Below, in pieces: positions 9,423 through 24,621 of a stretch of 64,000 nucleotides of DNA; the first letter of the stretch is position 1, and each line of letters begins with the position of its first letter. The stretch is from positions 124,001-188,000 of the forward strand of contig NZ_CP031947.1 in the NCBI RefSeq assembly GCF_003443535.1. Reading direction: 5' to 3'. Source of the stretch: Ruegeria sp. AD91A (GTDB lineage: Bacteria; Pseudomonadota; Alphaproteobacteria; Rhodobacterales; Rhodobacteraceae). The notes under the pieces are model-generated. The model had not been told where the DNA came from, ran no database searches, and saw only the letters and a list, made by a program, of their open reading frames with translations. A program made the translations under genes and the position numbers.

Positions 9423-10706
9423 ATGATTGCTCTCTCCTGGGTCGCGGCCGCTGCGGCACAGGAATTGCCGCACCCGCTGACCGATGATGACTTTATCCCC
9501 TTTGATATGGAACAGGCCGCCATCGGTCATCAACTGTTTTACGACCCGATCCTGTCCGGCAACCGCAATATTACCTGCGCCCATTGTCACCACCCGGATT
9601 TCGGCACCTCGGACGGGTTGTCGCTGGGCATAGGAGAAGGCGGACAGGGATTGGGACCGGACCGCACACCCGGCACCGGGGCCGACAGAATACGCAAACG
9701 CATCCCCCGCAACTCACCGGGCCTATGGAACCTTGGGGCCAAGGACATTCACACCGTCTTTCATGACGGCAGGCTGAGCATTTCCAACGACTACGGCAAC
9801 GGCTTCAATTCCCCGGCGCAGGAGTGGCTGCCCGAAGGCCTGAATTCTCTGCTTGCGGCACAGGCTCTGTTTCCGCTGACCTCACAATTCGAGATGGCGG
9901 GCAATGTGGCCGAAAATGAGGTCACGGGCGCGGTGCAGGATCGTATTGACAAGGGCTGGCCGATTCTGGCGAAACGCGTCCGCACCGATCCACGCTATGG
10001 TCCGGCCATCGTCGCCGCCTTTGATGAGGTCGAGACGACCGAGGACATCACTATCACGCACGTCGCCAACGCTCTGGCCGCTTTCATGGCGATTGAGTGG
10101 CGTAGCACCGACAGCCCGTTTGACCACTACCTTGCGGGCGACACGAATGCCCTTTCAACAGCACAAATGGATGGGATGAAGCTATTCTACGGCGAAGCTC
10201 GCTGCTCCACCTGCCACACCGGACCGCTCTTGTCAGATCAGAAGTTCCATGCATTGGGTTTACCACCCTTTGGGCCGGGTCGTACCCGGCAGTGGGATCC
10301 CTTCGTCCGGGATGTGGGCCGCATGGGTGAAAGCAACCGCCTGGAGGATGCTTACAGGTTCCGCACCCCGATGCTACGAAACGTTGCCCTGACCGCGCCC
10401 TATGGTCACAATGGCGCGTTCCCCGATCTTGAAAGCGTCATTCGCCATCATTTGGATCCGCAGGCAAGCCTCGACACATGGACTCCTCAAATGGCTGCAT
10501 TACCCGAGGTACCATGGTTACAAAAAACTGATTTCCTAGTTTGGGAGGACTACTATGAAATGGAGCGTCAACGCAAAAAAAATGACATTGAACCGATCCA
10601 ACTCACGGAAGTGGAAACCCAAAACCTGATTGCTTTTCTGCATTCGTTGACAGGTAGCAGCGTCGACTCGTCGAAATTCGGTGTGCCGAAGGGATTTGCT
10701 CCTTAA
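9423..10706 (+). CDS. Di-haem cytochrome c peroxidase/MauG family protein
   Basis: Two CxxCH haem sites are visible: CAHCH in NITCAHCHHPDFGTS near the N-terminus and CSTCH in EARCSTCHTGPLLSD in the second half. A later methionine-containing stretch RTPMLRNVALTAPYGHNG is typical of the bacterial CCP/MauG family. From ATG 9423 the product is 427 residues, with a short signal-like sequence (MIALSWVAAAAA) that lacks a charged n-region. A start further upstream, which would bring in several lysines, is possible because the frame is open from 8994. The protein should be periplasmic and use H2O2 or modify a partner protein. Confidence 0.82.
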   Translation: MIALSWVAAAAAQELPHPLTDDDFIPFDMEQAAIGHQLFYDPILSGNRNITCAHCHHPDFGTSDGLSLGIGEGGQGLGPDRTPGTGADRIRKRIPRNSPGLWNLGAKDIHTVFHDGRLSISNDYGNGFNSPAQEWLPEGLNSLLAAQALFPLTSQFEMAGNVAENEVTGAVQDRIDKGWPILAKRVRTDPRYGPAIVAAFDEVETTEDITITHVANALAAFMAIEWRSTDSPFDHYLAGDTNALSTAQMDGMKLFYGEARCSTCHTGPLLSDQKFHALGLPPFGPGRTRQWDPFVRDVGRMGESNRLEDAYRFRTPMLRNVALTAPYGHNGAFPDLESVIRHHLDPQASLDTWTPQMAALPEVPWLQKTDFLVWEDYYEMERQRKKNDIEPIQLTEVETQNLIAFLHSLTGSSVDSSKFGVPKGFAP

Positions 10707-11109
10707 TCATCCCTCATATCATCAAGATACGGCCAGAGAAATCGCATCCTGCCGTCCTTCTTGACTCTCCCTTCTGACGCGAGCGTGGAATGAAGTGATC
10801 CGTAGAAAGAAAGTCTCTGTAGAGCGGCGCGAAACAAAAAATACTCACTTCTGATATGGTATCGGACCGATTAAATCTGACAAGACAAACATCAGTATCT
10901 GGGGCGCTGTTCTTGAGGGCGGCATATTTCCGTTACCATATGAATTCAATCTCGACCGCGCGTCCTTATCGCCACCCCCGGATACGAAAAACCACCAACA
11001 AAGCCGTCATACGCACTTGCTGATCTATCGGGTATCGATCAGGAAAGCATACTGGTGGGATGCTCTTGTTGCGCTTCGCATTTCGTTGCGGTGTATTGCT
11101 GTAAAACAA
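10707..11109. other. Spacer between the di-haem gene and the genomic island
   Basis: Four hundred bases without a supported gene. Open frames are short and without motifs. Base composition is lower in GC than the flanking genes. It is the chromosomal side of the left island junction. Confidence 0.5.
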
Positions 11110-11129
11110 AAGGCCCCGTCAGGGGCCTT
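11110..11129 (-). terminator. Original tRNA-Pro terminator, now stranded at left island junction
   Basis: On the minus strand AAGGCCCC-TGAC-GGGGCCTT is followed by TTGTTTTA, a good intrinsic terminator. It stands at the same distance from the repeated tRNA 3' end as the terminator at 22986-23005 stands from the intact tRNA. This suggests it ended the tRNA-Pro transcript before the island inserted. Confidence 0.7.
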
Positions 11130-11134
11130 ATTTT

Positions 11135-11183
11135 ATTGGTCGGAGTGAGAGGATTCGAACCTCCGACCCCTGCCTCCCGAAGA
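11135..11183. repeat. Left attachment site: 49-bp copy of tRNA-Pro 3' part
   Basis: This stretch is identical over 49 bases to 23011-23059 and covers the CCA end, T arm, variable region and the 3' side of the anticodon stem plus anticodon (minus-strand sense). Beyond 11183 the sequence departs from a tRNA (tcggtg in place of cagtgc). It is the duplicated half created by site-specific integration into the tRNA. Confidence 0.92.
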
Positions 11184-11319
11184 TCGGTGCAGGTGGCCAA
11201 GTTATTGATTTTTGGTCAAAGGAGCCCTGTTTTTCAGGCTGCTTTGCCAAGCAAACCAACTAAGATACGGTTCGACAGGTTCATTGAACCTGAGAGCACT
11301 GTCTACATGCGCGTTAATC

Positions 11320-12336
11320 CTACAGTTCCCGTAACAGCTGCTGCGTTTTCGGCATGCGGTCCAGGCTGGCCTCAATCCTAGAACGCCACTTGGGGCCACG
11401 AGAGAGTGCATCTTCGTAGGCGTCATTCAATTCATCCGGCCGATCCTGAGCAAGCACCTCGACTAGAAACGCGGCCTGTCGTCTGTCCTTTTCTGCTTTG
11501 AGGGCATTTTCACCGGGACGACGACGGTCCGCGACAATCAACTTGTGGATGGCATAGCGTTCTGGCTGCGGGATTTGCACCAAAACGCCACTCCGGTAGG
11601 TTACAGCAGCGTTGATTGGCTCCGCGATAAGGTAGTTCAGATGGTGCAGCCCTTGCGCATCCACTCCCAAAGCGGGCAGTTCGCGCACATCCTCATCCTC
11701 ACCAAATGATGGAGTGAGGAATTCTATAAGCGTGTCGCCTCGTGTCTGTTTCCAACGCCAGGTGCGTCCGGCCGTGAGACTGGGCTGCGCCATGAAGTCG
11801 AAATCGCGGAACACATCTTCCAGCGGTGGTGATGCAGTGTCCTCCAGCACCAGCGACAACCTAGAAAAGCTGGCGATGTCGATGTCATCCGTGTGAGCGG
11901 TCATATCCATGTCGAAACGCACACCCAATTCACCTTCGTAGAGGCGGAAGGCGTGGGTCCCCACTATGGTGCCGCCTAGACGAAATACGCCGGACGTTGC
12001 CATCGCAGAGAGCAGGCTGCCGGTGGCAGCGTCCAGACCCAGGAAACCTTCTGCTCTTAGGAGCCGCACGAGGCGCGCCCGGTTGCGGCGGCGGTCTTCC
12101 TGTTGGGCTTTCAAAGTTTTGTGCTGTTCCAGCCGGCCGCGCAGTTCCTCACAATCTTCTCCCAGGTAGTGCTTTTTGACATCGGAACCGACCCGGTAGG
12201 TGTCATACCAGTAGGTCCTGTCGTTGCGTTCGACTCGTGTGGGGGTGCCCCGGATGTCCGAATCGGAATCGTCTCGCAGTGAACGCAGGAGATCGTGATA
12301 AGCGGCATGTGCTATGGATGAATGGCGCGTGAACAT
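11320..12336 (-). CDS. Nucleotidyltransferase-fold protein (GSU2403/NTP_transf_8-like)
   Basis: From ATG 12336 the product has 338 residues; a TTG at 12357 is the other candidate start. The central part reads IVGTHAFRLYEGELG then TDDIDIA, the G-[ST]...DxDxx arrangement of the DNA polymerase beta-like nucleotidyltransferase active site. The charged N-terminal part (EELRGRLEQHKTLKAQQEDR) is likely coiled-coil, and the C-terminus is helical. I recognise it as the GSU2403-like family, whose reaction is unknown. Related folds act as toxins or tRNA/protein nucleotidylation enzymes. It follows yhaN on the same strand with an 87-bp gap that contains a perfect palindrome, so it may be separately regulated. 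Confidence 0.75.
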   Translation of the reverse strand: MFTRHSSIAHAAYHDLLRSLRDDSDSDIRGTPTRVERNDRTYWYDTYRVGSDVKKHYLGEDCEELRGRLEQHKTLKAQQEDRRRNRARLVRLLRAEGFLGLDAATGSLLSAMATSGVFRLGGTIVGTHAFRLYEGELGVRFDMDMTAHTDDIDIASFSRLSLVLEDTASPPLEDVFRDFDFMAQPSLTAGRTWRWKQTRGDTLIEFLTPSFGEDEDVRELPALGVDAQGLHHLNYLIAEPINAAVTYRSGVLVQIPQPERYAIHKLIVADRRRPGENALKAEKDRRQAAFLVEVLAQDRPDELNDAYEDALSRGPKWRSRIEASLDRMPKTQQLLREL

Positions 12337-12366
12337 CTTGGCTTCCACTGTGCTCAACGGATTTTA

Positions 12367-12399
12367 TTTTTGTTGAACATAACATATGTTCAACAAAAA
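12367..12399. promoter_or_regulatory. Perfect 15-bp palindrome, putative operator upstream of nucleotidyltransferase gene
   Basis: TTTTTGTTGAACATA and TATGTTCAACAAAAA are exact inverted repeats separated by three bases. A third half-site, TGTTGAACA, lies at 12406-12414. The site stands 30 bp before the nucleotidyltransferase ATG, where a repressor of that gene would bind. As an AT-rich structure it could also end yhaN transcription, but the third half-site favours a protein-binding site. Confidence 0.6.
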
Positions 12400-12423
12400 A
12401 TAAAGATGTTGAACACCACGCTT

Positions 12424-15400
12424 TTAGCCCTGTAACTCGTGAATACACACAGATGGGCATATATTTCTCGCGATGTCGCAGAGATGCGCGTGATGAGTCA
12501 GGTAGATCACCTGGCCGCTTTTGCTCATCTCAGCTAGCAGGCCGAAGGCCTCGGCGGTGCGATCGTCGTCGAAGCTTTCCATGATGTCATCGGCAATGAA
12601 CGGCACTGGGCCGTTGTTGCGAGCAAACTCGTGGTAGCCTGCAATGCGTAGCGCAAGGTAGAGCTGAGCACGGGTGCCGTCTGAGAGTTGGTCAGCCTGT
12701 TTCGAGCCACCCCCAGCGGCCAGCGCCACCAATACTTCGCGGGAACCATCCGGCTGTGCGGCGAGGCCGGAATAGCGGTCCCGCGACATGATGCGGAAGG
12801 CTTCTGATGCGCGTTCGAGCATACCGCTGCGGTGAGTGTCACGATAGCTCCTGAGAGCGGCTTCGACTGCCAAGAGCCCCAAACGCTGCCGTAGGTGGCG
12901 CCGGGCGCCGTCCTCAATCTCAAGCAACAATGTCTGGCGTTGTTCTTCCAGACGGGCAACTGCGTCATCGCCACCGACCGCTTCGACGGCGTCTTCCGCC
13001 TTGCGAAAGTCGTCCTGTGCTTCTTCCTGTGCTGAGCGCAGGGTTTTCAAATCGGTCCGCAGGCTGTCAGCGCGTGCGGCGAGCGCATCGGCATCTAGAT
13101 CACGCAGTTGCGCACGTGCTTTTTCGACTGTATCGCATCGCATTCCTGCACAGAGGTCTTCGGTCAGTTCGCGCTGAGTTTCACGCAGTTTCGACAGTTC
13201 CCCTGCTCGCGTGAGCGCATCGCGCGCTTCGGCCCAAACGTCGACTTCAAAGTGACGGGAAAACTCGACGGTCCGATTGCGATGAATCTCGGCTTCCTCT
13301 TCCAACTCCGAGAGGGCTTGTGTGGCCGTCGTCAAACGATCTGAGAGGTTGGCTCGCTGATCTTCGCGGCTCTCCGCTGCGCGCTGTCGCCGGGTGATGT
13401 CACGCCACAGATCAGTCGCTGGCAGATCGGAAGGCATTTCGAGGCGAACCGCCAAATCGCGAGCCTCTTTTTCAAACCTTTCGCGGTTGGATTGCATGGT
13501 CGTTATCCGGTGGGTCAGTTCACCGATGCGGTCCTGATGTTCACGTAGTTGGTCGAGCTCTTCGAGGATCGCACGCATCTCGTCGACAGCGGGTGGCGCG
13601 TCAGCCATCCAAGTGTCGGCACAGGCGGCTTCCCACTCCACCTGCCATGCGGCGCGCGCGTCGTCTGCCTCTAGTTTGTTGCGCTCACGTCTGGTCAGGT
13701 TCTGGCGGGCCTCGGCTTCGGTCTCGCTCAAAGCCTCAACCTTAGACACTTGGTCCAAGAGAGATTGAGCGGTTTCAAGGGCTAGGGCCAGGCTCGTATC
13801 TTTGGGTATTGCGCGGCCCGCCTGTGCGAAAGCGTTCGAAATATCCAAACGAGCCTGGGCGACGATTTGCACGCGCCGGGCAAGATCGCGCGCCTTGTCA
13901 TCGTGCTTGACCTGGGCATCCTGTGCTATGTCGAGCTTGTCGAGCCAAGCGCGGAAAGTTGGCAGGTCGATGTCGGTGGGGAGTGCGGGGGAGACCTTGG
14001 CAGCGATTCCGGCAAGCCGTTTCGCCAGGTTTTTGCGCCGCTCCCTGGCCTCGGCCGATTTCACTTTGGCAGCTTCAACTTGTTGGTGGGCTTCGACCAA
14101 CGCACGCTCGGCCTCGGCAGTCTTTTCGGCATGGGCGCGCTGATCCGCAAGGGTGGCGGTCACCTGGTCGTCGAGGCGCATCGCAACCTCAAAGCACTCT
14201 GCTGTTTTGTCCGTCAGATCCGCACGGTGGCGGGACCATTCTAATTCCCGACGTGTTCGCACTTGAGCTGCCTCTTCCAGAGTAACTACGGCAGTTGTTC
14301 CGACTGCATCGCGTCGAGCGAGAGCTTGGGTCACAGCGTGTTCTAGTTGCTCCAGCCAATCATCCGCCCGGTCGATCGCCCTATCAGCCTCGGCGATTTC
14401 CGCGTCCAGTTGCTCAAGAGCGGCGTCGTCTGGCGGAGTCAAACTCGCCAGTTCATCGTTGTTTCCCGTCCAGGGCGAAAGCGTAGACAGGGCTGATTTC
14501 AAACGCGCTTCCTTCTCTTCAAGCTCGGTGCTTACACGGTCGTGAGCGCCGACAGGATCGTCGCGGCGAAGATTTTGCACCAAACCGGCCAGCCCACCCA
14601 AATTTGACACGCTGCCTCCAGCCTTACTTAAACGCCGCTCAGCGCGCTCGAGGCCATCTTTAGCAAGCTGCAATTCTCTAGTCGCAGAATCGCACGCGGT
14701 TTCCACACCAGAACTTTTTTCGATCAGCGCGCGCAGGCGCCCCAGGCTTCTTGCCTCGGGCAACAGCTTGGTCGGATCCGCCCCGACGTGCCCCAGTCGA
14801 GACAGGCAATCATTAACTGCTGCGGCCCTAGCATCGAGCTCTCCCCGCCGTTTGGGCAAGTCCTCCACCGCGGTGTCATGGGCCGATTTCAATTGTTCCG
14901 CCGCCTCGATGTCCTCGCGTGCTTTCAGAACCACCCCGTCGGGTGGGAGGTCGTTCAATTCGGCTACCAACCCTGCCACAGTCTTTTTCGCGGCCTCAAG
15001 CCGGGTGGCAATGGCGGTCTCCCTGCGGTCAAGTTCGGGAAGTTCGGCGAGCCATCCCTCTGGAGGTTCTGGTAGCGAACCGTAACTGGCGATCTCCGCC
15101 TCTAGACGGTCCAGCCGCGGCAAAAGCGGTAGTGCTGCGATGTGGCGGTCGGTCTCGATTACATCGGTCTGTGCAGCTTCTGCCGCCTCGCGCGCCTTGT
15201 GCCGGGCATCTTTGGTCCGATCGCATTCAGTTGATAGGCGAGCATACTCGGAAGCAGCAGTGTCCAATTCCTTAATCTGCCTTCCCAAGTCGTCGTAGGC
15301 GGCACAAAGATCGCGCAACGCACCCTTGCGTCCGGTCCTGTTCAGGAACCCCTCTGACTCTGCATTCAATTCGTCCAACTGCGCCGCCAAATCGGTCATC

Positions 15401-15867
15401 CCCGCGCTTGCCTGAAAAAGCAACTCACCGAGATCCCCCTTGCTGGCAAGGATGCTTTCGCCTCCTTCATCCAGGGTCTGTCGATTGAGTGAGAACATCG
15501 CCGCATAGGATGTGCGGTCGAGTCCTCGCAGACCGCCATGCAGCAGCGCTTCACCCAGCGGTTCACCGCTGGCGTCGAGCAGAGAATTGTCACGTTTCTT
15601 GACCCGAAGCAGTTCATGCGTCTGCCCGTCGATTTCTAGCACGGCCCCCAACTGCATCGACTGATAGGGGTGAATGAATCCCATGCTGCTTCGCACGGGG
15701 ATCTGGAACAGCATGTCCAGCCAACCTTCGAGCAGGGTGGATTTCCCAGCTTCGTTTGCGCCGTAGATCACGTGCAGGTCGGGGTCACCGGGTGTTTGGA
15801 CGGGAAACGAAAGGCTCAGATCAGTGAACTTGCCAAAACGGGTGAGGTCGAGCCGGTTCAATCGCAT
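12424..15867 (-). CDS. YhaN-like SMC/Rad50-type AAA ATPase
   Basis: The 1147-residue protein has an N-terminal ATPase lobe with Walker A GANEAGKST at 36-44. Very long coiled-coil arms follow (about 170-1000, rich in A, E, R, L and D). The C-terminal lobe carries the YhaN-type signature LSDGTRAQLYLALRIA near 1060, Walker B PFIADDIMESFDDD near 1095 and a final H-loop VIYLTHHAHLCDIAR. This is the SbcC/Rad50 architecture in its YhaN version. It starts three bases after the stop of the nuclease gene, so the two form one transcript and should assemble like SbcCD/Mre11-Rad50 on DNA ends. Its place in a mobile island suggests defence or island maintenance more than core repair. Confidence 0.88.
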   Translation of the reverse strand: MRLNRLDLTRFGKFTDLSLSFPVQTPGDPDLHVIYGANEAGKSTLLEGWLDMLFQIPVRSSMGFIHPYQSMQLGAVLEIDGQTHELLRVKKRDNSLLDASGEPLGEALLHGGLRGLDRTSYAAMFSLNRQTLDEGGESILASKGDLGELLFQASAGMTDLAAQLDELNAESEGFLNRTGRKGALRDLCAAYDDLGRQIKELDTAASEYARLSTECDRTKDARHKAREAAEAAQTDVIETDRHIAALPLLPRLDRLEAEIASYGSLPEPPEGWLAELPELDRRETAIATRLEAAKKTVAGLVAELNDLPPDGVVLKAREDIEAAEQLKSAHDTAVEDLPKRRGELDARAAAVNDCLSRLGHVGADPTKLLPEARSLGRLRALIEKSSGVETACDSATRELQLAKDGLERAERRLSKAGGSVSNLGGLAGLVQNLRRDDPVGAHDRVSTELEEKEARLKSALSTLSPWTGNNDELASLTPPDDAALEQLDAEIAEADRAIDRADDWLEQLEHAVTQALARRDAVGTTAVVTLEEAAQVRTRRELEWSRHRADLTDKTAECFEVAMRLDDQVTATLADQRAHAEKTAEAERALVEAHQQVEAAKVKSAEARERRKNLAKRLAGIAAKVSPALPTDIDLPTFRAWLDKLDIAQDAQVKHDDKARDLARRVQIVAQARLDISNAFAQAGRAIPKDTSLALALETAQSLLDQVSKVEALSETEAEARQNLTRRERNKLEADDARAAWQVEWEAACADTWMADAPPAVDEMRAILEELDQLREHQDRIGELTHRITTMQSNRERFEKEARDLAVRLEMPSDLPATDLWRDITRRQRAAESREDQRANLSDRLTTATQALSELEEEAEIHRNRTVEFSRHFEVDVWAEARDALTRAGELSKLRETQRELTEDLCAGMRCDTVEKARAQLRDLDADALAARADSLRTDLKTLRSAQEEAQDDFRKAEDAVEAVGGDDAVARLEEQRQTLLLEIEDGARRHLRQRLGLLAVEAALRSYRDTHRSGMLERASEAFRIMSRDRYSGLAAQPDGSREVLVALAAGGGSKQADQLSDGTRAQLYLALRIAGYHEFARNNGPVPFIADDIMESFDDDRTAEAFGLLAEMSKSGQVIYLTHHAHLCDIARNICPSVCIHELQG

Positions 15868-15870
15868 CGC

Positions 15871-17118
15871 TCAACCATCGGTCTCTTCGAGGCGCGCAAG
15901 AACCTCCATTGCGCCCTGCTGCATCGCATGGACAATAGTCGCGGCCGTCTCTTCCTGACTATCACCCAGGAGCGCTCGCAACTCACGTGGGATATACTTC
16001 AGCAAACGTTCCACGTCTTCCAGAACGGCCGGATCATCAGGGGGAAGACTTCGCTGCGTGATGATCTGAGCCAGTTCCTCTAACGCGCCTCCAGTGGACG
16101 CATTGCTGACGGCGGACAACGCAAGCTCGATCTTGTCGATCCAAAGCGTGCCGATCTGCTCGGCGACGTTCTGCGCCTCGGCGTGTAGCAGGTCGAGGTC
16201 ACGACCCGCTCTCCAGGCCAATGGAGTTTTTCCAGTCAGCACTGGTCGGACGATCAGCTGCTCACCAGCGTGGTCACGCCGCGCTGTGTGCAGAGCATGC
16301 TTCAGCGCCTCAATTAGGTCTGGCCAGTCAGATAATAGGTGGCATTCCACCGGGAGCCGTTCGAACTGCGCCATCGCGAGGTGCCGTTCTTCTACTGCGA
16401 CCAAACCGTCGTCGGCCACCGAAACCAGCGAAACCGACTTGTTCCCGGCCTCACCGATGTCGCGACCTTGCGGTATTCCGGGCATGACTACAGTTGTCGT
16501 GCCGGTGTGAATGGTCCGCCGGTGGATGTGCCCCAGCGCCCAATAGTCGAACCCGGTCGCTTGAAGTTCGGCCAGCGTGCAAGGTGCATATGGATCATGC
16601 CCCTGCGCTCCGCCGAGGGACGTGTGTAGCATTCCTAGATTGAAAGCTCCCATCACCGGTGGCCCAAAACGGTCCAACAGAGTGTCGGGTGCATGGGGGT
16701 CACGAAATGAAACACCGTGAACAGCAACTGAATGATCGTTCCAGTCAGTCTCGACGACCTGTGCTTTGCCCGGGAACACCGTCACGTTTTCCGGCAAGAC
16801 TAGCTCACGCGTGATCTTGGATGCCGCATCGTGGTTGCCGCGGATAATGAAAACCGGAATGCCCGCTGCGTCTAGGCGCTCCATCTCTAGAGCGAGGATC
16901 CGAGCAGTCTTCATTGATGTTTGACTGCCGTCATACAGGTCGCCGGCAATCAGCAGCGCCTGGACATCTTCGGTCACGCACAGATCGATCAGCCGCCTAA
17001 ATGTGGTTCGGGTCGCATTTCCGACTACTTCTGCCAGTGCTTCGTCGCGCATGGCTAGAGACTTTAGCGGTGAGTCCAAATGAATATCTGCAGTGTGAAC
17101 GAACCGGAAGGCCAACAT
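15871..17118 (-). CDS. YhaO-like Mre11/SbcD-type metallophosphoesterase (DNA exonuclease)
   Basis: This 415-residue protein contains all calcineurin-like nuclease motifs: D11-x-H13 (HTADIHLDSP), GDLYD at 59-63, GNHD at 94-97, a histidine in LGMLHTSLGG and the final GHIHRRT. Two manganese ions are expected. The C-terminal region (about 290-415) is the capping/ATPase-contact part. It is the first gene of the minus-strand operon yhaO-yhaN. YhaO proteins are annotated as DNA repair exonucleases. The partner ATPase would gate access to DNA ends. Confidence 0.88.
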   Translation of the reverse strand: MLAFRFVHTADIHLDSPLKSLAMRDEALAEVVGNATRTTFRRLIDLCVTEDVQALLIAGDLYDGSQTSMKTARILALEMERLDAAGIPVFIIRGNHDAASKITRELVLPENVTVFPGKAQVVETDWNDHSVAVHGVSFRDPHAPDTLLDRFGPPVMGAFNLGMLHTSLGGAQGHDPYAPCTLAELQATGFDYWALGHIHRRTIHTGTTTVVMPGIPQGRDIGEAGNKSVSLVSVADDGLVAVEERHLAMAQFERLPVECHLLSDWPDLIEALKHALHTARRDHAGEQLIVRPVLTGKTPLAWRAGRDLDLLHAEAQNVAEQIGTLWIDKIELALSAVSNASTGGALEELAQIITQRSLPPDDPAVLEDVERLLKYIPRELRALLGDSQEETAATIVHAMQQGAMEVLARLEETDG

Positions 17119-17122
17119 ATTT

Positions 17123-17195
17123 CCCCAATAAACACTAAAACTATGAGAGAAATTGAAACTACGACGTCGTGACCGTCAAGGCAGAATTATTGGGG
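17123..17195. promoter_or_regulatory. Divergent control region with nested inverted repeats
   Basis: The 200-bp gap between yhaO (minus) and the HTH gene (plus) contains CCCCAATAA (17123-17131) and its exact complement TTATTGGGG (17187-17195). In between lies the self-complementary ACGACGTCGT (17161-17170). The nearby HTH protein is the natural candidate to bind here and control both directions. Promoter elements were not identified with confidence. Confidence 0.4.
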
Positions 17196-17318
17196 TCGCT
17201 ATAGTCGACGAAAACACGGGAATTCAAACAGCATATCGTTTCCCTGGAAATACCCAATCATCCCTTCGCTATATCGAAAACATGCAGTGAGTGCTGCGTG
17301 AAATCTGAGAGGATAGTG

Positions 17319-17720
17319 ATGACAAAAAAACCGCATGCGGACACCCGGATGGCGAGGTATGTCGAGCGCCGGGTGCTCGAATTGAAACCCAAAAAGAAAC
17401 AGGCTGAGATTGCCGCCCTGGCTGGCTATGTGAACCAGAACATGATCACAATGATCAAGCAGGGTAGCTCCAAAGTGGCGCTGGATCGAGTCCCGGCGTT
17501 GGCGAAAGCTCTGGAATGCGACGCCGCCTACCTTTTGCGCCTCGCAATTGAGCAGTCGATCGGCCTGACTGCAGCCGAGGCAGTTGTCGAGGTGTTCGGA
17601 GAACCTGTCACGTCGAATGAACTTGGCTGGCTGAAAGCAATACGCAAAGCCTCCAACAACACGGATCCTCGGCTGACCTGTCGGTCAGAGACGGCGATCA
17701 ATGCGATCTTTGGGAGGTGA
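17319..17720 (+). CDS. Small XRE-like helix-turn-helix protein
   Basis: From the ATG at 17319, preceded by GAGAGG, the product has 133 residues. Residues about 25-75 (QAEIAALAGYVNQNMITMIK and following VALDRVPALAKALECDAAYL) have the Cro/CI-type helix-turn-helix pattern. The C-terminal part ends with LGWLKAIRKASNNTDPRLT, a segment echoed in the next gene. It is divergent from yhaO-yhaN and may regulate that operon. A GTG at 17298 is an alternative start. Confidence 0.7.
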   Translation: MTKKPHADTRMARYVERRVLELKPKKKQAEIAALAGYVNQNMITMIKQGSSKVALDRVPALAKALECDAAYLLRLAIEQSIGLTAAEAVVEVFGEPVTSNELGWLKAIRKASNNTDPRLTCRSETAINAIFGR

Positions 17721-17725
17721 ATTTC

Positions 17726-17869
17726 ATGTCTGACAATGAGGGAGACTTGACACCCAATGAGCGCGCCTGGCTGCGCTTCCTACGAGAAGTGAGTAACAAG
17801 AAAGATCCGAGGCCGACTTTGCGCCGGGTGCAACTCCTTCGGCGCCTTTGCGAACCTCGGAGAGCTTGA
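17726..17869 (+). CDS. 47-residue protein resembling the C-terminus of the upstream HTH protein
   Basis: ATG 17726 is preceded at good distance by GGGAGG, which itself overlaps the stop codon of the HTH gene, so the two are translationally coupled. The product contains NERAWLRFLREVSNKKDPRP. This lines up with NELGWLKAIRKASNNTDPRL of the preceding protein (AWL/GWL, V/A-SN-DPR conserved), pointing to a partial duplication or a separately encoded domain. No function is known. Another frame continues with GELDGNTEKDGGEEWLKS after the stop, so a frameshift is also possible. Confidence 0.55.
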   Translation: MSDNEGDLTPNERAWLRFLREVSNKKDPRPTLRRVQLLRRLCEPRRA

Positions 17870-17904
17870 TGGAAATACAGAGAAGGATGGCGGTGAGGAA
17901 TGGC

Positions 17905-18343
17905 TGAAAAGCTGAGATTCACCGGATCCCTTTGGAGACACGCGAGATAGAGGGTGATCTTCGCGTGGCCATTCCCGCATGTGAAGAAAAGGAGACACCA
18001 GTCGCGACAAAATAATTAACTTTGGCGTAATCGGTGAGTTGGAACAGCCGGTCAAGAAGGATGACCGCGATGAGATAGCTGAAATTCGATACAACTAGCT
18101 CGGCATCGGTTTCAATTACGAGGGCATGCCGGTCTATCAGTCCACAAACACCGTCCAATCTGTGAAGACATTCACACCCAATTTCTCAAAAAGGTCTGGA
18201 GTCTCGGATTTCACATCACCATCGACAACATCCATCCCTTCGTCGATCTCTGGTATGACGGCGTAGAAAGCAACCACGCCACCTTGACGACACAAGAGTT
18301 CCGGAAGATGACTGGGCAGATTTATCAAGGAGCACCAAAGTGA
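17905..18343 (+). pseudogene. Frameshifted remnant of an unknown protein gene
   Basis: Protein-like stretches appear in succession in different plus frames: ETREIEGDLRVAIPACEEKE (about 17935-17995), then INFGVIGELEQPVKKDDRDE running to RYN and a stop at about 18095, then LGIGFNYEGMPVYQSTNTVQ, and last DIHTQFLKKVWSLGFHITID continuing to YQGAPK with a stop at 18341-18343. Together they read as one gene broken by two frameshifts and a nonsense codon. The final stop overlaps the GTG of the next gene, which is how an intact operon would be arranged. The family is not recognised. Sequencing errors are the other explanation. Confidence 0.45.
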
Positions 18344-18522
18344 ATACCACGCAGCTCAAAATCCGCTACATCTTAGAGGTGGTCGCAGCGGCATTGGTCA
18401 CAACTTTCATAGCATGGGGCGAAAGCCAGAACGGTCTTGCCGCGACTTACGTGGTAGGCATCGGTCTCTTGATTTGGGTCGGCATACGACACATGCTTGC
18501 TATCGGCAGACATTGGGCCTGA
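18340..18522 (+). CDS. Small membrane protein of unknown function
   Basis: The 60-residue product begins at GTG 18340, which overlaps the stop of the preceding broken frame (GTGA), and has AAGGAG upstream. Two hydrophobic segments (about 10-25 and 33-50, containing YVVGIGLLIWVGI) suggest a two-span inner-membrane protein. It may be the last gene of the small HTH operon. Function unknown. Confidence 0.5.
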   Translation: MNTTQLKIRYILEVVAAALVTTFIAWGESQNGLAATYVVGIGLLIWVGIRHMLAIGRHWA

Positions 18523-18587
18523 GGCCTCGTAGCGCCTTGGCCCTTTGGTCTACTCATCCTGCTCTGCATGCCGCCTAAGAGAGCTGC

Positions 18588-18760
18588 AAAGGTTGCATAA
18601 GGTTGACAAAGGTTTACATCCGCCCTCGCGGGACTGACGGAATGTAAACCTTTCACCTCTCAAACCACCCCAAAATCAGGCCAAAGGTTTACACTAAGTT
18701 TACATTAAGTTGACAGATTTCGCCCAAAATCAGGTTTTTCAGACCAAAATGTAAACCTTT
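18588..18760. repeat. Iteron-like array of AAAGGTTTACAT elements
   Basis: Direct copies lie at 18608-18619 and 18683-18693, inverted copies (ATGTAAACCTTT) at 18642-18653 and 18749-18760. Weaker direct copies lie at 18588-18600, 18601-18608, 18696-18706 and 18707-18715. A second short element, CCCAAAATCAGG, occurs twice (18669-18680 and 18723-18734) next to them. Mixed orientation and helical-scale spacing are typical of binding sites for an initiator or a regulator. Confidence 0.65.
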
Positions 18761-18870
18761 CACAGAGCAAAACCCAATAAAACATGGCTCTTCGGAAACA
18801 ACACATCCGAACCAAGGCCAGAAAAGCGCACAGAACAGCGAAACACAGGCCAGCTAACACCTGACACACG

Positions 18871-19143
18871 TAAGAGAACGGACAGCACTCAGGCCAGCGC
18901 ACAGTAAGCCTGAGCATAAACCTCATAGAGAACAAACACACAGGTCTAGGCCAGCAAAGCTTTCAAGCTACTCCGGAGATCAAATACCGACGATTACACA
19001 TAGAGCGGTAATAGATGCACCTAGAGAGAAACACTCTAAGAGAGCGGTCACACGTAAGAGAGCCCTAGAGAGGTGCCAGTAGAGAGAAAGTCCCTATAGA
19101 GAGCGTATGTGCCTAGAGAGAACAGGTGCGCGTGTGTAGAGGG
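18871..19143. repeat. Array of TAGAGAG / TAAGAGAG short direct repeats
   Basis: Eleven copies or near-copies, all in one orientation, start at 18871, 18926, 19001, 19022, 19037, 19055, 19066, 19080, 19097, 19114 and 19137. The eight from 19022 on are 11-23 bp apart, and several are preceded by CC. The intervening bases differ, so this is not a simple tandem repeat and not a CRISPR. Confidence 0.65.
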
Positions 19144-19323
19144 GTAATCGTAGGAGGGAGTATTCGGGGCGGCGCCCAATTTGCGCTTGCGTTTACCAGA
19201 CCTTTTGTATGCTCTGTTGCTTCTAAGTGCTCATTGGGAAGCTGGCAACTTGCGGTGAAGCGTATTGAAGGCTGCACTTTGAATTTTTGTGCTGCTATTC
19301 CTTTGGGAGTTCGTATTGCGACT

Positions 19324-19521
19324 TCAAGAGAGTAGCTTCATCGAACCCTTGAGGCGTTGTTCCGCATCTTTTGCAATCGCCATGAGTCTTTCCTGTCGAG
19401 TTGGCTCACTAACAGCGTCGCTAACCGATATGGGCCCGCTCTCGTCTGGGCGATCCGACTTTTCATTGTTCGGCCGGCTTGGAACGTTTTTCGGTGTATG
19501 CGGATTCTTAGATTTTACCAT
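19324..19521 (-). CDS. Small hydrophilic protein of unknown function
   Basis: The 65-residue product begins at an ATG with AGGAG ten bases upstream on the minus strand. The first half is rich in K, P, N and S and probably disordered. The second half (RQERLMAIAKDAEQRLKGSM) is a likely helix. No family is recognised. The opposite strand also has an open frame, but its translation is cysteine- and serine-rich and looks like a shadow. Confidence 0.5.
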   Translation of the reverse strand: MVKSKNPHTPKNVPSRPNNEKSDRPDESGPISVSDAVSEPTRQERLMAIAKDAEQRLKGSMKLLS

Positions 19522-19697
19522 AACCCCTAACTCCTAAACTCATCGAAAATAGACCGATGATTGTTTTCTGGCAACCGCCCGGAGATCAACACCAGCAAAA
19601 CAGGCGTGTCGCCCCTTCGCACAAGTCTCGCGGTCGTATAACTTGCAGTTCGTTACGCCCAACTGGGCGGCTCAAAAAACTGATCGAGGGCCTAGAG

Positions 19698-20585
19698 TTG
19701 GACAAACTGTCAGTCATGCAAGCTTTTCGCCGTATCGTTGAACGCGGTAGCTTTGCCCGTGCGGCGGAAGACCTTGGTGTTTCTCCCGCGCTTCTCAGCA
19801 GAGAAATCAAGCTTCTGGAAGAAAGTCTGGGAACCGTCCTCCTAACCAGAACGACCCGATCCATGTCACTGACTGACACCGGCAGTCTCTATTACCAAGA
19901 TGCAATTGGAATTCTCGACGCTGTCGAAAAAACGGAACAGACCATCAGGGAAGGTGCAAAAGCGATGCGCGGGCACCTTCGGGTGAATGCATCAAGCTCT
20001 TTCGGCCAAACCGTTATCGCACCGATGCTTCCCGAGTTCTTGGAAACCTATCCTGATCTGCGATTTACGCTTTCGATGGACGACAAGGTGATCGATATGG
20101 TCGAGGGCGGGTTCGATCTGTCGATACGTATCCGTGCTGCCATGCCGGATTCGGCACTGGTCGCCCGACGGATCGGCGTGATGCGGCAGAGAGTATTTGC
20201 GTCTCCTGACTATTTGGAGCGATGCGGGACGCCGACCCAGCCGGCGGATCTGAAAAGCCACGCGATCATCGGCTTTTTGCTTGCTGATCATTTGACCAGC
20301 TGGAAGCTCTCGGCCGCCAACGGTGTCACCGCATTAGAACTTGATCCGCGCGTGCGGGTCGGCAACAGCCTCGTTTTGCGGGATCTGCTGATAGCGGGGC
20401 AAGGTATCGGAACACTGCCCGAGTTCGTCTCTGATGCTCCCGAAGCCAGCGGGGCCTTGGTGCGAGTTCTTCCTGACCACGAATTGCCCGCGCCGGAAGT
20501 ATTCGCCGTTACGGCATCTCGCTTGGGAATGGACGCCAAGGTCACAGCCTTTCTTGATCATCTGCGCCTGGCTCTCAGGTCGTGA
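19698..20585 (+). CDS. LysR-family transcriptional regulator
   Basis: From the TTG at 19698, preceded by GAGGG, the product is 295 residues and begins DKLSVMQAFRRIVE as family members do. The helix-turn-helix is RGSFARAAEDLGVSPALLSR and the rest is a periplasmic-binding-like effector domain. The frame is open back to 19557, but that extension is not LysR-like. It lies 106 bp upstream of wrbA on the same strand and probably controls wrbA and the EamA gene in response to a quinone or electrophile; that role is inference from position. Confidence 0.88.
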   Translation: MDKLSVMQAFRRIVERGSFARAAEDLGVSPALLSREIKLLEESLGTVLLTRTTRSMSLTDTGSLYYQDAIGILDAVEKTEQTIREGAKAMRGHLRVNASSSFGQTVIAPMLPEFLETYPDLRFTLSMDDKVIDMVEGGFDLSIRIRAAMPDSALVARRIGVMRQRVFASPDYLERCGTPTQPADLKSHAIIGFLLADHLTSWKLSAANGVTALELDPRVRVGNSLVLRDLLIAGQGIGTLPEFVSDAPEASGALVRVLPDHELPAPEVFAVTASRLGMDAKVTAFLDHLRLALRS

Positions 20586-20691
20586 CATTGTTCAATACAG
20601 GTAAAGAGTGATGTCAAAGAGCGCGACTTAATTGGCGGCGCAACAAATTCCATTCTCTCAGGGAACAAGTCACAGCCCTGAGAGGTATCCT

Positions 20692-21315
20692 ATGTCACGT
20701 ATTCTCGTTCTCTACTATTCAAGCTATGGCCACGTCCGCACATTGGCCGATGCAGAAGCTGAAGGCGCCAGAAGTGTTCCCGGCACCGAAGTTGACGTTC
20801 GGCGTGTGCCCGAAACCGTCCCTGAAGAACTCCGCCAGCAGGCCGGTTATGTCGTCGATGATACGCCTATCGCCTTGCCGGCAGATCTGGAAAACTATGA
20901 TGCAATAATTTTAGGAACACCGACCCGGTTTGGCATGATGGCCGGCCAAATGAAGTCGTTCTTGGATCAGGCTGGCGGGCTTTGGGCTAGGAATGCTCTG
21001 GTTGGTAAAGTCGGGGCGGTCTTTGCATCTACGGGTTCGCAACATGGCGGGCACGAGGCGACCCTTCTGACAACGCAAGTCCCTCTTCAACACTTTGGGA
21101 TGCTGATTGCCGGAATGCCCTACACATTTGCTGGCCAGACTACATCAGAAGAAATCATTGGCGGCGCACCATATGGTGCGGGAACGATCGCCGGTGCTGA
21201 TGGTTCTCGCACGCCTACCGAAACCGACCTAGCCGGGGCGCGGTTCCAGGGTGCTCATGTTGCAACGATTACAGCGTGCCTCGCTGGATCAAACCTTCAA
21301 GCGGAAGCAGCGTAA
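20692..21315 (+). CDS. wrbA: NAD(P)H:quinone oxidoreductase, WrbA type
   Basis: From ATG 20692 (GAGAGG upstream) the product has 207 residues and a flavodoxin-like fold. [17 protein letters not shown] is the FMN phosphate loop, and [19 protein letters not shown] with [20 protein letters not shown] are the WrbA signatures. It reduces quinones by two electrons and protects from oxidative stress. It lies between the LysR and EamA genes of the island cargo. Confidence 0.93.
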
Positions 21316-21373
21316 CCCGCGCGCCTCTGACGTCTCACTCAAATTCTCAAACGCCTCAGCCGGGAGACATACA

Positions 21374-22270
21374 ATGTCACGCTCAACCGATATTCTTCTC
21401 ACTTCGCTCGCCCCAGCGGTATGGGGAAGCACTTATCTGGTAACTACGGAAGCGCTCCCGGCTGGCTATCCGATTACCCTGGCTGCGTTACGAGCTCTGC
21501 CAGCTGGCTTGTTGTTGCTTGCAGTGACGCGCTGCGTTCCACCACGCGAATGGCTCGGTCGAACTTTCGTCTTAGGCAGCCTCAATTTCGCTCTGTTCTG
21601 GGTGCTCCTCTTCGTTGCTGCGTATAGGTTGCCTGGTGGTGTGGCAGCCACCCTGGGATCGTTGCAAGCAATGATCGTGATTTTGATGGCGTGGGGATGG
21701 CTGGGAACCCCAATCCGACTTGGTGCACTTGGCGCCGCCACGACTGGCGTAATGGGTGTGTCTCTGCTGCTGATCGGACCAGAAGCACAACTTGATTGGA
21801 TCGGTATAGCAGCGGGTTTGGGAGGAGCCGCGTCAATGGCTGCCGGCACTGTTCTCAGCCGGAAATGGCAACCACCGGTCTCGGCGCTTAGTGTCACAGC
21901 GTGGCAATTAACAGCCGGTGGTTTGATACTGCTGCCAGTCGCACTGTTTCTTGAGCCGCCTCTACCTGCGCTCAGCGCGACAAATGTCGCCGGCCTTATT
22001 TGGCTTGGGTTGATTGGTGCTGCAGCAACCTATGCTCTTTGGTTTCGTGGCATAGCGCGCCTGGACCCCAGTGCAGTCTCGATGCTTGGCATGATGAGTC
22101 CTTTGACAGCTGTCGTGCTCGGCTGGGTATACTTGGGACAAACGCTTAGCTTCACTCAGTCCATAGGAGCAGCCATAGTTATTGTCTCTGTTGTGGTCGG
22201 CCAGAGCGTGAGCAGAAGGGACAATTCGGGTTTGAAAAAATGGAGACCAGCAACAGCTGGATCTGTCTGA
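21374..22270 (+). CDS. EamA/DMT-family transporter
   Basis: From ATG 21374 the product has 298 residues with ten predicted membrane segments made of two EamA repeats. The first repeat begins LAPAVWGSTYLVTTEALPAG; the second contains AWQLTAGGLILLPVALFLEP and ATYALWFRGIARLDPSAVS. It is a drug/metabolite exporter of unknown substrate, 58 bp after wrbA and probably co-transcribed with it. Confidence 0.87.
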   Translation: MSRSTDILLTSLAPAVWGSTYLVTTEALPAGYPITLAALRALPAGLLLLAVTRCVPPREWLGRTFVLGSLNFALFWVLLFVAAYRLPGGVAATLGSLQAMIVILMAWGWLGTPIRLGALGAATTGVMGVSLLLIGPEAQLDWIGIAAGLGGAASMAAGTVLSRKWQPPVSALSVTAWQLTAGGLILLPVALFLEPPLPALSATNVAGLIWLGLIGAAATYALWFRGIARLDPSAVSMLGMMSPLTAVVLGWVYLGQTLSFTQSIGAAIVIVSVVVGQSVSRRDNSGLKKWRPATAGSV

Positions 22271-22401
22271 TGGGTGCTGAGTCGTAAACAACGGACCCAA
22301 TCACGCAAGCGGGCGAGGAATGGCAGAGCGCCTCGTTCAAGCCCGTTCTCCAGATCCCAACAATATCGAAGTCCTAGGTTTCCCCACGCATAATTAAGGG
22401 G

Positions 22402-22941
22402 ATGGGTTCTGGGTCCGCAGCGTTTGATTGGTCCAAACCTCCCGTAGCTATTGTTGCTTTGTGGACAAACGATCCAAAGCGCTTAGAGCGCTCAGGGCGT
22501 GCACTTCTACTTCAATGCTGTCGTGTATCGAAAACAGCGCTGGACGTTGCCAGAGAGCACCCTAGCCAGCCCAGTGATCTTCCTCGGCGGGAGGGGCAGA
22601 GGAAGGGCCGGGCCATCGTCCCCATGACCGGGAGCCTGCGTGCGGCGCTCCTGGAGGCGCGGAAGGCGGCTTTGTCCGACTACGTCGTGGAATGGGCCGG
22701 TGGGCCCGTGAAGTCCATCAAGAAGGGCTTCAAGGCCGCCGCGATCGAGGCAGGTCTGCCTGATGTGTCACCGCACGTTCTGCGCCACACAGCGGCAGTC
22801 CACATGGCGGAGGCCGGCGTCTCGATGGAGGAGATAGCCCAGTTTCTCGGCCATTCAAACTCACGGATCACCGAGTCTGTCTATGCGCGCTACAGCCCGG
22901 ACCACCTGCGAAAAGCGGCCGACGCACTGGAGTTCGAGTAG
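22402..22941 (+). pseudogene. 5'-truncated tyrosine recombinase (island integrase)
   Basis: Recognisable integrase sequence starts only at about 22590 (QRKGRAIVPMTGSLRAALLE). It continues through the beta-hairpin lysine, the box SPHVLRHTAAVHMAEAGVSM (H-x-x-R), GHSNSRITE (second H) and VYARYSPDHLRKA with the nucleophilic tyrosine. The first catalytic arginine, the core-binding domain and the arm-binding domain are missing; the sequence in front does not resemble them. It lies 70 bp from the tRNA-Pro attachment site, the usual place for an island integrase. Confidence 0.85.
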
Positions 22942-22985
22942 TGCTCAGGTTCACTAAACACTGGATCACTGTCTTACAAACAACA

Positions 22986-23005
22986 AAGGCGCCCTTGGGC
23001 GCCTT
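22986..23005 (-). terminator. tRNA-Pro terminator supplied by the island
   Basis: On the minus strand AAGGCGCCC and GGGCGCCTT form a nine-base stem directly downstream of the tRNA 3' end, followed by a T-rich stretch (TGTTGTTTG). Its design matches the terminator at 11110-11129 but the sequence differs. Confidence 0.75.
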
Positions 23006-23010
23006 ATTTA

Positions 23011-23059
23011 ATTGGTCGGAGTGAGAGGATTCGAACCTCCGACCCCTGCCTCCCGAAGA
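23011..23059. repeat. Right attachment site inside tRNA-Pro
   Basis: This is the second copy of the 49-bp direct repeat (first copy 11135-11183). It contains the 3' end of the tRNA as far as the anticodon loop; crossover must lie inside it. The chromosome continues with the 5' half of the tRNA at 23060. Confidence 0.92.
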
Positions 23060-23089
23060 CAGTGCTCTACCAGGCTGAGCTACACTCCG
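23013..23089 (-). tRNA. tRNA-Pro, anticodon CGG
   Basis: The minus strand folds as a full cloverleaf of 77 bases including an encoded CCA. The acceptor stem is CGGAGTG/CACTCCG with discriminator A, the D arm is GCTC...GAGC, the anticodon stem CTGTC/GGCAG carries a TTCGGGA loop, and the T arm is GGAGG-TTCGAAT-CCTCT. The anticodon at loop positions 34-36 is CGG, reading CCG proline codons. It is the integration target of the adjacent island. Confidence 0.93.
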
Positions 23090-23208
23090 ACCGTGGCGGG
23101 TGATCTATACGCGGTGCTGCTGTTGCGCAAGAGGTTTTTGAAATGGGGACACCCGGATCACTCAGTCTCAAAAATCGAAAAGAATTTGGGCGGAACCCGA
23201 TTTGGCAA

Positions 23209-24324
23209 TCACGACAAGGGATCGGTTTTGTACAGGCGAATTTTGGTTCCTCCATGGTCCACTACCGGTCCTGGTGCCAGCAATGGCAGGCGTGTGGCCC
23301 GAGCAAGCCCGGGGGCGCTGGTGATTACGCCTACGCGCCATCCCCTGAATCGGTTCATCAGGGTTTTTCCCATGGCACCATAGACTGAACGCAAGCGTTT
23401 TTCGTCACCAATTCGCGCTCCATATGGCGGGTTGACAATGACCAGCCCCGCAGGACCCTCGGGTGGTTTGATGTCGCTGACGGAATGCTGTCGAAACCGT
23501 GTCCAAGCACCGACTTGTGCCCTTTCAGCATTGGCGGTCGCAGCATCAATTGCGCCGGTGTTGCGATCCGAGCCGTAGAAGGTAAGGGCACATTCTGCCG
23601 TATTCGTTTCCCTTCGCATCTTTTGCCACTGATCAGGATCAAAACCCGCCAGTTCTTCGAATGCAAAACTACGGGAGCGGCCAGGACGCAGACCCAGAGC
23701 GATCTCGGCGGCCTCGATCACGAATGTGCCTGACCCGCACATCGGGTCCAGTACGGGTTCGTCGCCCGAGTAGCCGCACTCTCTCAGGAACATTGCGGCC
23801 ATTGTTTCTCGCATCGGAGCCTTGGCAATGGCTTCCTTGTGGCCGCGCTTGTGCAAAAGCTCGCCAGAACTGTCGACGGAGATCGTGCAAATGTCTTTCT
23901 CGATTCGGAGCAAGACCCGAAGCCCTGCGTCGGATGAAATCGGAGCGCCCAATGTTTCGGATATTGCCCGCTCGATCCTCTGACGCGCTGCACCCGCATG
24001 ATAAATTCTGGATTTGCGGCTGGTGGCCTCCACCTTGATCGGCACGTCAGGACGCAAGACATCACCCCAAGGGAATTTGCGTGCACGTTTGTCCAATTGG
24101 GCAAGATGCACAGCGGGGAAACTGCCGAGTCGCACCAGAACCTTGTTGGCGCCTCGCAGCATCAGGTTGGCACGCCAGACCTCGGGCCACGACCCCCGGC
24201 ATGACACGCCACCTGGTACGGTTCTGACCCCTGCGAATCCGTTCGATTGCGCCTCGTCACCGAGAGGTGCTTCAAGGCCTGGGGTGGCAACCAGAAAGAT
24301 TTCCAAATCTGTGTCTTTTTCCAT
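23209..24324 (-). CDS. THUMP-domain class I SAM-dependent RNA methyltransferase (RlmL-like)
   Basis: The 371-residue protein has an N-terminal ferredoxin-like/THUMP region (about 1-165) and a Rossmann methyltransferase domain. That domain carries the SAM motif PVLDPMCGSGTFVIEAAEIA (about 193-212) and the amino-methylating NPPYG motif near 295. This is the N2-guanine or N6-adenine RNA methyltransferase group typified by E. coli RlmL. The length corresponds to the single-domain form without the RlmK half. It is 120 bp upstream of tRNA-Pro on the same strand and divergent from the nqr operon. Confidence 0.87.
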   Translation of the reverse strand: MEKDTDLEIFLVATPGLEAPLGDEAQSNGFAGVRTVPGGVSCRGSWPEVWRANLMLRGANKVLVRLGSFPAVHLAQLDKRARKFPWGDVLRPDVPIKVEATSRKSRIYHAGAARQRIERAISETLGAPISSDAGLRVLLRIEKDICTISVDSSGELLHKRGHKEAIAKAPMRETMAAMFLRECGYSGDEPVLDPMCGSGTFVIEAAEIALGLRPGRSRSFAFEELAGFDPDQWQKMRRETNTAECALTFYGSDRNTGAIDAATANAERAQVGAWTRFRQHSVSDIKPPEGPAGLVIVNPPYGARIGDEKRLRSVYGAMGKTLMNRFRGWRVGVITSAPGLARATRLPLLAPGPVVDHGGTKIRLYKTDPLS

Positions 24325-24621
24325 TCCGGTTGCTTACACTGGAACTTGGGTGGGCGCGACATACAATTGTACGCTTCGGATTCGGTAGGTTTGAACGGTA
24401 AATTGCAGGATTGTGTGGTTCATTCTTAACTTTTGGCGGTAACAGGTTTGCGTTTGTGAACTTCCCCGCGTAAAGGGTCCTTGATCGGAAATACGCCTGC
24501 GGATTTTGGACCGTTTTCGACGCTTTTGCGACGGAGGTTCGAGAAAACCGCGCTATTGCATGACCCCGAAAGGGCGTTGGCAGAGCTGGCGCAGAAAAGA
24601 GGCTTGGAAGAACGTAGCAAC
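24325..24621. other. Upstream region of the nqr operon
   Basis: About 300 bp separate the divergent RNA methyltransferase and nqrA genes. The nqrA frame is open back to 24481, but the added residues do not match NqrA, so this is leader or promoter sequence. It must hold both promoters; no consensus boxes could be assigned with confidence. Confidence 0.45.

Follow-up and report, generated by a model that had tools for sequence, protein, structure and literature searches.

Tycheposons and marine phage satellites are small tRNA-linked islands of marine bacteria, with swapped cargo and a suspected dependence on helpers. Both are named in PMC11389934. CIMEs (cis-mobilizable elements), as presented in PMC5704250, are elements that have kept their att sites and lost their integration and transfer genes. 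Two further groups offer points of comparison: the SGI1-type integrative mobilizable elements with a replicon (PMC7433901) and the ssrA-specific islands of Dehalococcoides (PMC3146451).

The window, which is the whole stretch of 64,000 nucleotides analysed here, corresponds to bases 124001-188000 of the 743,267-base second contig (second replicon) of a Ruegeria host. The relatives of the host genome are Ruegeria, as are 5 of the 9 plasmid records with a DNA match. Positions 11135-23059 are very probably an integrated element at tRNA-Pro(CGG), flanked by att sites, CIME-like, dependent on help and with a decayed integrase. Its features are as follows.

11110..11129, minus strand: terminator-like hairpin behind the outer core copy, within DNA (11077-11134) that resembles the arm of G026-type elements.
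11135..11183, minus strand: att core, outer copy, 49 bp, identical to the other (repeat comparison; homology ends at the core in G020 and G032).
11276..11307, minus strand: arm-type site of the left end, near-palindromic, orientation not firm.
11320..12357, minus strand: NTP_transf_8 nucleotidyltransferase (98% identical protein in R. halocynthiae G032).
12424..15867, minus strand: AAA_27/SMC-like ATPase, partner of the next gene (domain search, neighbourhoods).
15871..17118, minus strand: SbcD/Mre11-like metallophosphoesterase (domain search).
17319..17720, plus strand: 133-aa regulator of XRE type with an HTH_3 domain; belongs to the core of the island family (domain and genome searches).
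17726..17869, plus strand: 47-aa ORF with 40% identity to the one that follows this regulator in Gemmobacter plasmid p6.
17985..18340, plus strand: frame-broken phage gene remnant (87% over 128 bp, 18191-18318, to a viral contig; the rest by reading frames).
18587..18800, plus strand: conserved non-coding array of about 200 bp with seven heptamers, GTTTACA/GTTGACA (alignment; viral contig match).
19698..22571, plus strand: cargo block of LysR (YafC-like), WrbA and EamA exporter genes (93.6-93.9% identical in G018 and G020, 79% in G014).
22591..22941, plus strand: 3' stub of a tyrosine integrase (open frame from 22402; matches the end of the G002 integrase).
22946..22978, minus strand: arm-type site of the right end (local alignment with the left arm).
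22986..23005, minus strand: terminator-like hairpin behind the tRNA-proximal core copy, in the integrase-side arm common to G002, G012, G016, G020, G024, G029 and G035.
23011..23059, minus strand: att core, tRNA-proximal copy, 49 bp (repeat comparison).
23013..23089, minus strand: intact tRNA-Pro(CGG), whose 3' part is the right att core (ARAGORN; Rfam tRNA, 62 bits).

The resemblance to tycheposons is one of general description (small, tRNA-linked, marine, swapped cargo, suspected helper dependence). Like the CIMEs of PMC5704250, the window island lies at a tRNA gene between attL and attR, with identical cores and arm sites at both ends, and has lost its integration genes down to an integrase stub. 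A further shared trait in that text is the formation of arrays beside other elements, and G018 carries three cores in a row. The likeness covers the att and integrase parts, whereas descent from an ICE or IME is putative; no transfer gene was found among the eight island proteins scanned, and no intact parent with transfer genes was found. With the SGI1-type elements (PMC7433901) the island shares cargo and a repeat region near a regulator, in an iteron-like layout. It differs from them in having no rep gene (no replication initiator among the eight proteins scanned) and no identified helper, and its array is at most a putative origin. The Dehalococcoides islands (PMC3146451) likewise show a single RNA-gene hotspot, a conserved integration-side module, varied cargo and a size of about 12 kb, but phylum, target gene and integration module are others. 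Judged by titles, no paper on Ruegeria tRNA-Pro islands was found in the open-licence literature. The island is ordinary in kind, and the part worth following is the module shared with phage-plasmids.

The first-pass annotation had reported an exact 49-bp direct repeat of the tRNA 3' part at both ends, an intact tRNA at the right end only and two different terminators behind the two copies. All three were borne out, and its interpretation was in essence right. It did not mention the wider family of islands with decayed integrases, the stacking on an older element or the segment in common with a phage-plasmid-like contig, which are described below. Positions 11135-11183 and 23011-23059 are identical at 49 of 49 bases, and the similarity extends to 75 nt at 92% (11109-11183 and 22985-23059), reaching into the two terminator-like hairpins. 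ARAGORN reports a single tRNA in the window, and apart from it the Rfam scan gave nothing above the gathering score. A 111-bp query of the own genome returned nine matches, which are the two att copies and seven weaker ones; six of the seven were inspected as loci and proved to be other tRNAs (Arg-CCG, Pro-TGG, Thr, Arg-ACG, Pro-GGG and Lys). Similar arm sites of about 32 bp stand at both island ends, with an alignment as good in 1 of 2000 shuffles for the window and in 0 of 2000 for the G020 pair. They are near-palindromic, and their scores on the same versus the opposite strand are 35 vs 31 in the window and 40 vs 30 in G020.

The window's outer flank is probably not the native one, because 11077-11134, beyond the outer terminator, aligns at 82-85% with the arm of another element type (G026) and, at E 1e-6, the native flank of Ruegeria sp. 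B32 matches nothing in the window's stretch. The left side appears to show accretion (stacking) or rearrangement on an older element and not one insertion into a native site, because the left flank gene, a cytochrome c peroxidase, lies elsewhere in G001 (same contig, about 338 kb away), G005 and G030, and the native flank of B32 is different. This gene is not a neighbour of the tRNA in the other genomes checked. A sequence of about 200 bp at 10879-11077 recurs at 74-79% in G034, G015, G072 and G027. All four matches stop at 11077, unlike a fifth and shorter one in G061. We read it as the end or remnant of a mobile element.

By sequence, the window island belongs to a modular family with those of G002, G018, G020, G024, G026, G061 and R. 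conchae. Its left end, up to 11309, recurs in G020, G024 (in part), G026, G061 and R. halocynthiae G032. The match stops at the core in G020 (11309-11134, at 89%, the flank beyond not being shared) and in G032 (to 11133), and continues to 11077 in G026; the boundary at the core is placed by the G020 and G032 comparisons. The slot beside the left end holds the ATPase, phosphoesterase and nucleotidyltransferase genes in the window, and a pair of 405-aa and 790-aa genes in G018, G020, G024 and G061, which we read as methionine gamma-lyase-like and transketolase/E1-like. On the side away from the tRNA, which is the one compared, the R. conchae island has only the regulator and array after the core, then an IS6 transposase. 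The last 55 bases of the G002 replicon equal its first 55, and it appears to be circular; no outer core was found there in 36 kb past the contig start. The G026 integrase is intact and of another type, and the outer core of that island shows 7 mismatches. In the DNA fetched, an intact integrase and two exact cores come together in none of eight islands (G000, G002, G018, G020, G024, G026, G061 and R. conchae).

The regulator and the array form the core module of the family. The full-length regulator and the array co-occur in the same 8 of 54 same-genus genomes: in tRNA-Pro islands of G000 (the host's own genome), G002, G018, G020, G026 and G061, and outside tRNA-Pro in G029, where they lie near tRNA-Val with a different integrase next to them, and in G006, where they lie near tRNA-Ser. 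In 4 further genomes of the 54 the regulator match was partial or weak and the array was absent. Among 295 genomes drawn from the host's taxonomic family, the core array pattern was found in 3, its own included. The heptamers start at 18602, 18612, 18643 (minus strand), 18687, 18698, 18709 and 18750 (minus strand), with a spacing that is partly 10-11 bp. In nine aligned copies, the 49 heptamer columns are conserved at 0.968 vs 0.752 elsewhere, a result reached in 0 of 10000 permutations and in 4 of 216 cyclic shifts (zero shift included). The 47-aa ORF behind the regulator resembles the regulator's C-terminus (32%). Next to the array, at 18990-19130, there are dense TAGAGAG-like repeats, also seen in R. 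conchae and not in G018 or G020.

This module looks to be of phage-plasmid kind, and a phage-plasmid satellite origin of the island is possible. The best surviving alternative to a CIME-like element, though we consider it unlikely, goes further: the island family would consist of satellites (hitchhikers) of a Rhodobacterales phage-plasmid, with tRNA integration as the resting state. The XRE regulator and the array would answer to the helper and be where its proteins for replication, partition or packaging act; taken as a whole, this reading is doubtful. A single homologous viral record, IMGVR_UViG_3300037566_000044, bears on it, and the record is a linear metagenome fragment of 62,872 bases, which weakens the case. 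Its content, on the other hand, speaks in favour. Both the array region (81% over 623 bp, all seven heptamers present) and the phage gene remnant match this one contig. In it a RepA initiator is followed, at a distance of about 0.24 kb, by a related regulator (48%), and DnaB, primase, ligase, ParA and a ParB-like protein are encoded as well. The DnaB is closest to those of Rhizobium phages and of plasmids of 116-119 kb, several of which have the regulator beside repC.

The regulator matches 34 plasmid and 10 phage records, and in 6 of the 9 named plasmid or phage records inspected the homologue lies within 3 kb of repC or repA, as satellites of a phage-plasmid might suggest, whereas for the other 3 no initiator is seen in the stretch inspected around the regulator. 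The co-occurrence of regulator and array near three different tRNA genes, the conserved heptamers and the size of four family islands (9-14.5 kb) all favour satellites; against this, the G002 and G026 islands are larger and much of the family's cargo is metabolic. The array matches no annotated phage and, among plasmids, R. conchae only, and no close relative of the regulator turned up when viral contigs were scanned. The RepA of the viral contig has its own 22-bp iterons of other sequence, of the kind seen in Gemmobacter p6, so that the array as a RepA origin was not supported. Phage structural genes were not found among the island proteins (eight by Pfam, five by PHROGs) beyond a weak coiled-coil match of the ATPase, and the integrase is broken. 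Stated in full, and in our judgement improbable, the proposal is that the Ruegeria tRNA-Pro islands are an undescribed family of helper-dependent phage-plasmid parasites. They would own the regulator type of the phage-plasmid, with the shared array as their signal for replication, partition or packaging, and would exchange metabolic and defence genes among one another. Their integrases, acting at tRNA-Pro, -Val and -Ser, would be interchangeable and would have been lost time and again while both att sites stayed. The regulator and array, with a DNA-level match to a phage-plasmid-like virus, offer a lead on the upkeep or movement of stranded islands.

Separately, a 6.3-kb viral contig (L257) was excluded, since its match to the array pattern came only through an AT-rich simple repeat. 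On the 44-kb plasmid p4 of Cereibacter azotoformans (L244:6611-16725), a regulator homologue is found close to a type I-U CRISPR-Cas locus, and the same holds for C. sphaeroides p.C.

The preferred reading, an att-flanked element with a decayed integrase, draws on the gene beside the tRNA. The 5'-truncated tyrosine recombinase noted at first reading is there, with the last 115 or so codons (about the last third) left. The ORF at 22402-22941 matches Phage_integrase over profile positions 109-169 of 172 only. In G002, an intact, orthologous integrase of 327 aa lies just as far from the tRNA (offset 149-1132 vs 149-688 in the window). Homology to it begins at about 22591, and the DNA up to about 22571 is the cargo block shared with G020. 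Identity to G002 over 22591-23009 is 81% at the DNA level. The stub shares 102 of 115 residues with the intact protein (dS 1.06, dN 0.065, dN/dS 0.061 over 115 codons); the low ratio suggests recent truncation or remaining constraint, and from dS and dN most of the divergence therefore seems to predate the truncation. The point of truncation (22571-22591) might be read as a pseudo-att, an idea that was dropped for the inverted orientation.

No other close full-length match to the G002 integrase was found in the 54 same-genus genomes, the next being G067 at 43%. The own genome gives 16 Phage_integrase matches, the stub and fragments included, which counts somewhat against immobility. No close intact homologue was found elsewhere in it (next best 30% identity); together with the truncation, this supports the earlier suggestion that the island may be stranded or dependent on help from another element. 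Integrase end and arm DNA occur at the tRNA in G012, G016, G020, G024 and G035 (96-250 bp), and the arm alone in G029. The matches in G020 and G024 measure 104 bp and 122 bp (integrase end plus arm), and G018 has a 132-aa stub. In G061 no integrase was found by profile, a profile that also missed a distant integrase in L236 found by Pfam. These matches suggest repeated decay of the G002-type integrase, and the short ones of about 100 bp by BLAST could instead reflect divergence. Loss of the integrase with both att sites retained, in several related islands, is part of what makes this site informative.

The stub remains an open frame under apparent constraint, and residual function is possible. 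That it works as a small recombinase or directionality factor, and is not a decayed gene, is nevertheless very unlikely. The open frame, the dN/dS against the intact gene and the H-x-x-R and Tyr region that the stub retains would suit such a protein, but the N-terminal domain and the first catalytic Arg region are gone, and the matches in relatives differ in length, with three stop codons in the G016 copy, as decay predicts.

An integrated element with a decayed integrase is also the reading that fits the same site in relatives. The left flank was searched in 54 same-genus genomes, and 37 (the own and 36 others) were inspected at the tRNA, G061 being added later. The tRNA-Pro(CGG) gene is present in the fetched stretch in 37 of 37. 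A second core downstream (up to 6 mismatches) is present in at least 8 of the 37 (G000, G008, G015, G018 twice, G019, G020, G030 and G033), a lower bound because the fetched stretches vary from 3.6 to 38 kb. G024 and G026 have weaker second copies by BLAST, and G061 has a second core with 3 mismatches.

The first-pass annotation had proposed a search of related genomes for an empty site, and this comparison gave two results. In G029 the island is missing and both flanks are colinear with the window: the left flank matches at 94.5% over 9,284 bp that end at 10705, the right flank at 88% over 23204-24421 (1.2 kb of the RlmL gene), and there is one repeat copy in the 18 kb inspected. A further 430 bp of left flank are missing and the DNA between the flanks looks like an insertion sequence, and we take G029 as not a clean empty site. 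In Ruegeria sp. B32, the sequence after the tRNA equals the DNA directly behind the outer repeat of the 36.5-kb G008 island (97.5%, 1898 bp), that is, an exact insertion at tRNA-Pro with the native flank behind the second repeat. We regard B32 and G008 as the cleanest empty and occupied pair for the tRNA site in general, not for the window's own island. This pair fits the earlier claim that the island brought its own tRNA 3' end and terminator. In the genomes examined, no island-free relative has both repeats and the internal genes show no universal synteny. The tRNA 3' end repeated directly on either side, a single intact tRNA and absence at the same site in relatives (G029; B32/G008 for the site generally) give the locus the marks of a tRNA-integrated tyrosine-recombinase island.

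That the repeats are a tRNA gene and a chance or duplicated tRNA fragment with ordinary replicon genes between them can be dismissed, since, even if tRNA fragments do occur in genomes and gene order on the left flank varies within the genus, the interior is absent in G029, the occupied and empty sites contradict it, the G020 and G032 matches stop at the core, both ends carry arm sites and other islands end in the same core.

Under the preferred reading, a tyrosine integrase, most likely of the G002 type, recombined the element into the 3' part of tRNA-Pro(CGG), next to the arm of an older element. The tRNA would have been restored with the element's own 3' end, leaving the displaced 3' end 11.9 kb away. 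Cargo would have been exchanged inside the hotspot, and later cargo DNA would have been joined to the middle of the integrase gene, with about two thirds of the integrase lost. The remaining att-flanked unit probably does not excise alone. It could move only in trans, with an outside integrase of matching specificity, or in cis, with a new element integrating beside it. The comparison with relatives shows integration and truncation themselves, and from it we infer the order of these events, the exact crossover point, the present immobility and the mobilization in trans or cis. With an occupied and empty pair and an intact relative of the broken integrase, one tRNA site on the second replicon of a marine bacterium thus documents how islands collect, recombine and get stranded.

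The tRNA-Pro(CGG) of G016 (L089:1252-1328) differs from that of the window at 7 positions, in the T-arm and 3' part. Its last 48 bases are the core variant of G032, and the outer core of G026 looks the same by reading. It is as if the T stem had been rewritten by an integrating element.

Regarding the cargo, the ATPase and phosphoesterase genes, which we take to be YhaN-like and YhaO-like, sit side by side in every one of the best 80 among 315 loci. Among these, NTP_transf_8 stands beside the pair only in R. halocynthiae (L126, the genome of G032/L114); G016 has the NTP_transf_8 gene alone near its tRNA-Pro. The LysR-WrbA-EamA block is also found in G061, G026 and G002 at about 94%. The ATPase, phosphoesterase and nucleotidyltransferase cargo was not classed as defence, as the PADLOC matches for the ATPase are weak. 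In Lamassu, LmuB is paired with an LmuA effector; here the similarity to LmuB is weak (46 bits), no LmuA was found among the eight proteins and the partner is SbcD-like. The site across the genus was also rejected as a defence hotspot: in 19 other genomes, the 20 large ORFs scanned around the tRNA fall by Pfam under transport, metabolism, helicase or unassigned. G002 is the only one among the genomes scanned near the tRNA with type I restriction-like and CBASS-like genes.

A few smaller observations concern these genes. Between the nucleotidyltransferase and ATPase genes (12350-12416) lies a 32-nt AT-rich inverted repeat (81%). In another genus, Rhodalgimonas zhirmunskyi (L119:6263-7991), the phosphoesterase/ATPase pair stands about 0.4 kb behind tRNA-Pro(CGG). 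Lastly, the G002 island (L239:4283-6656; L086/L239) carries a CBASS-like pair of CD-NTase and patatin phospholipase together with type I restriction-like genes, and a second, divergent EamA end is found beside them.
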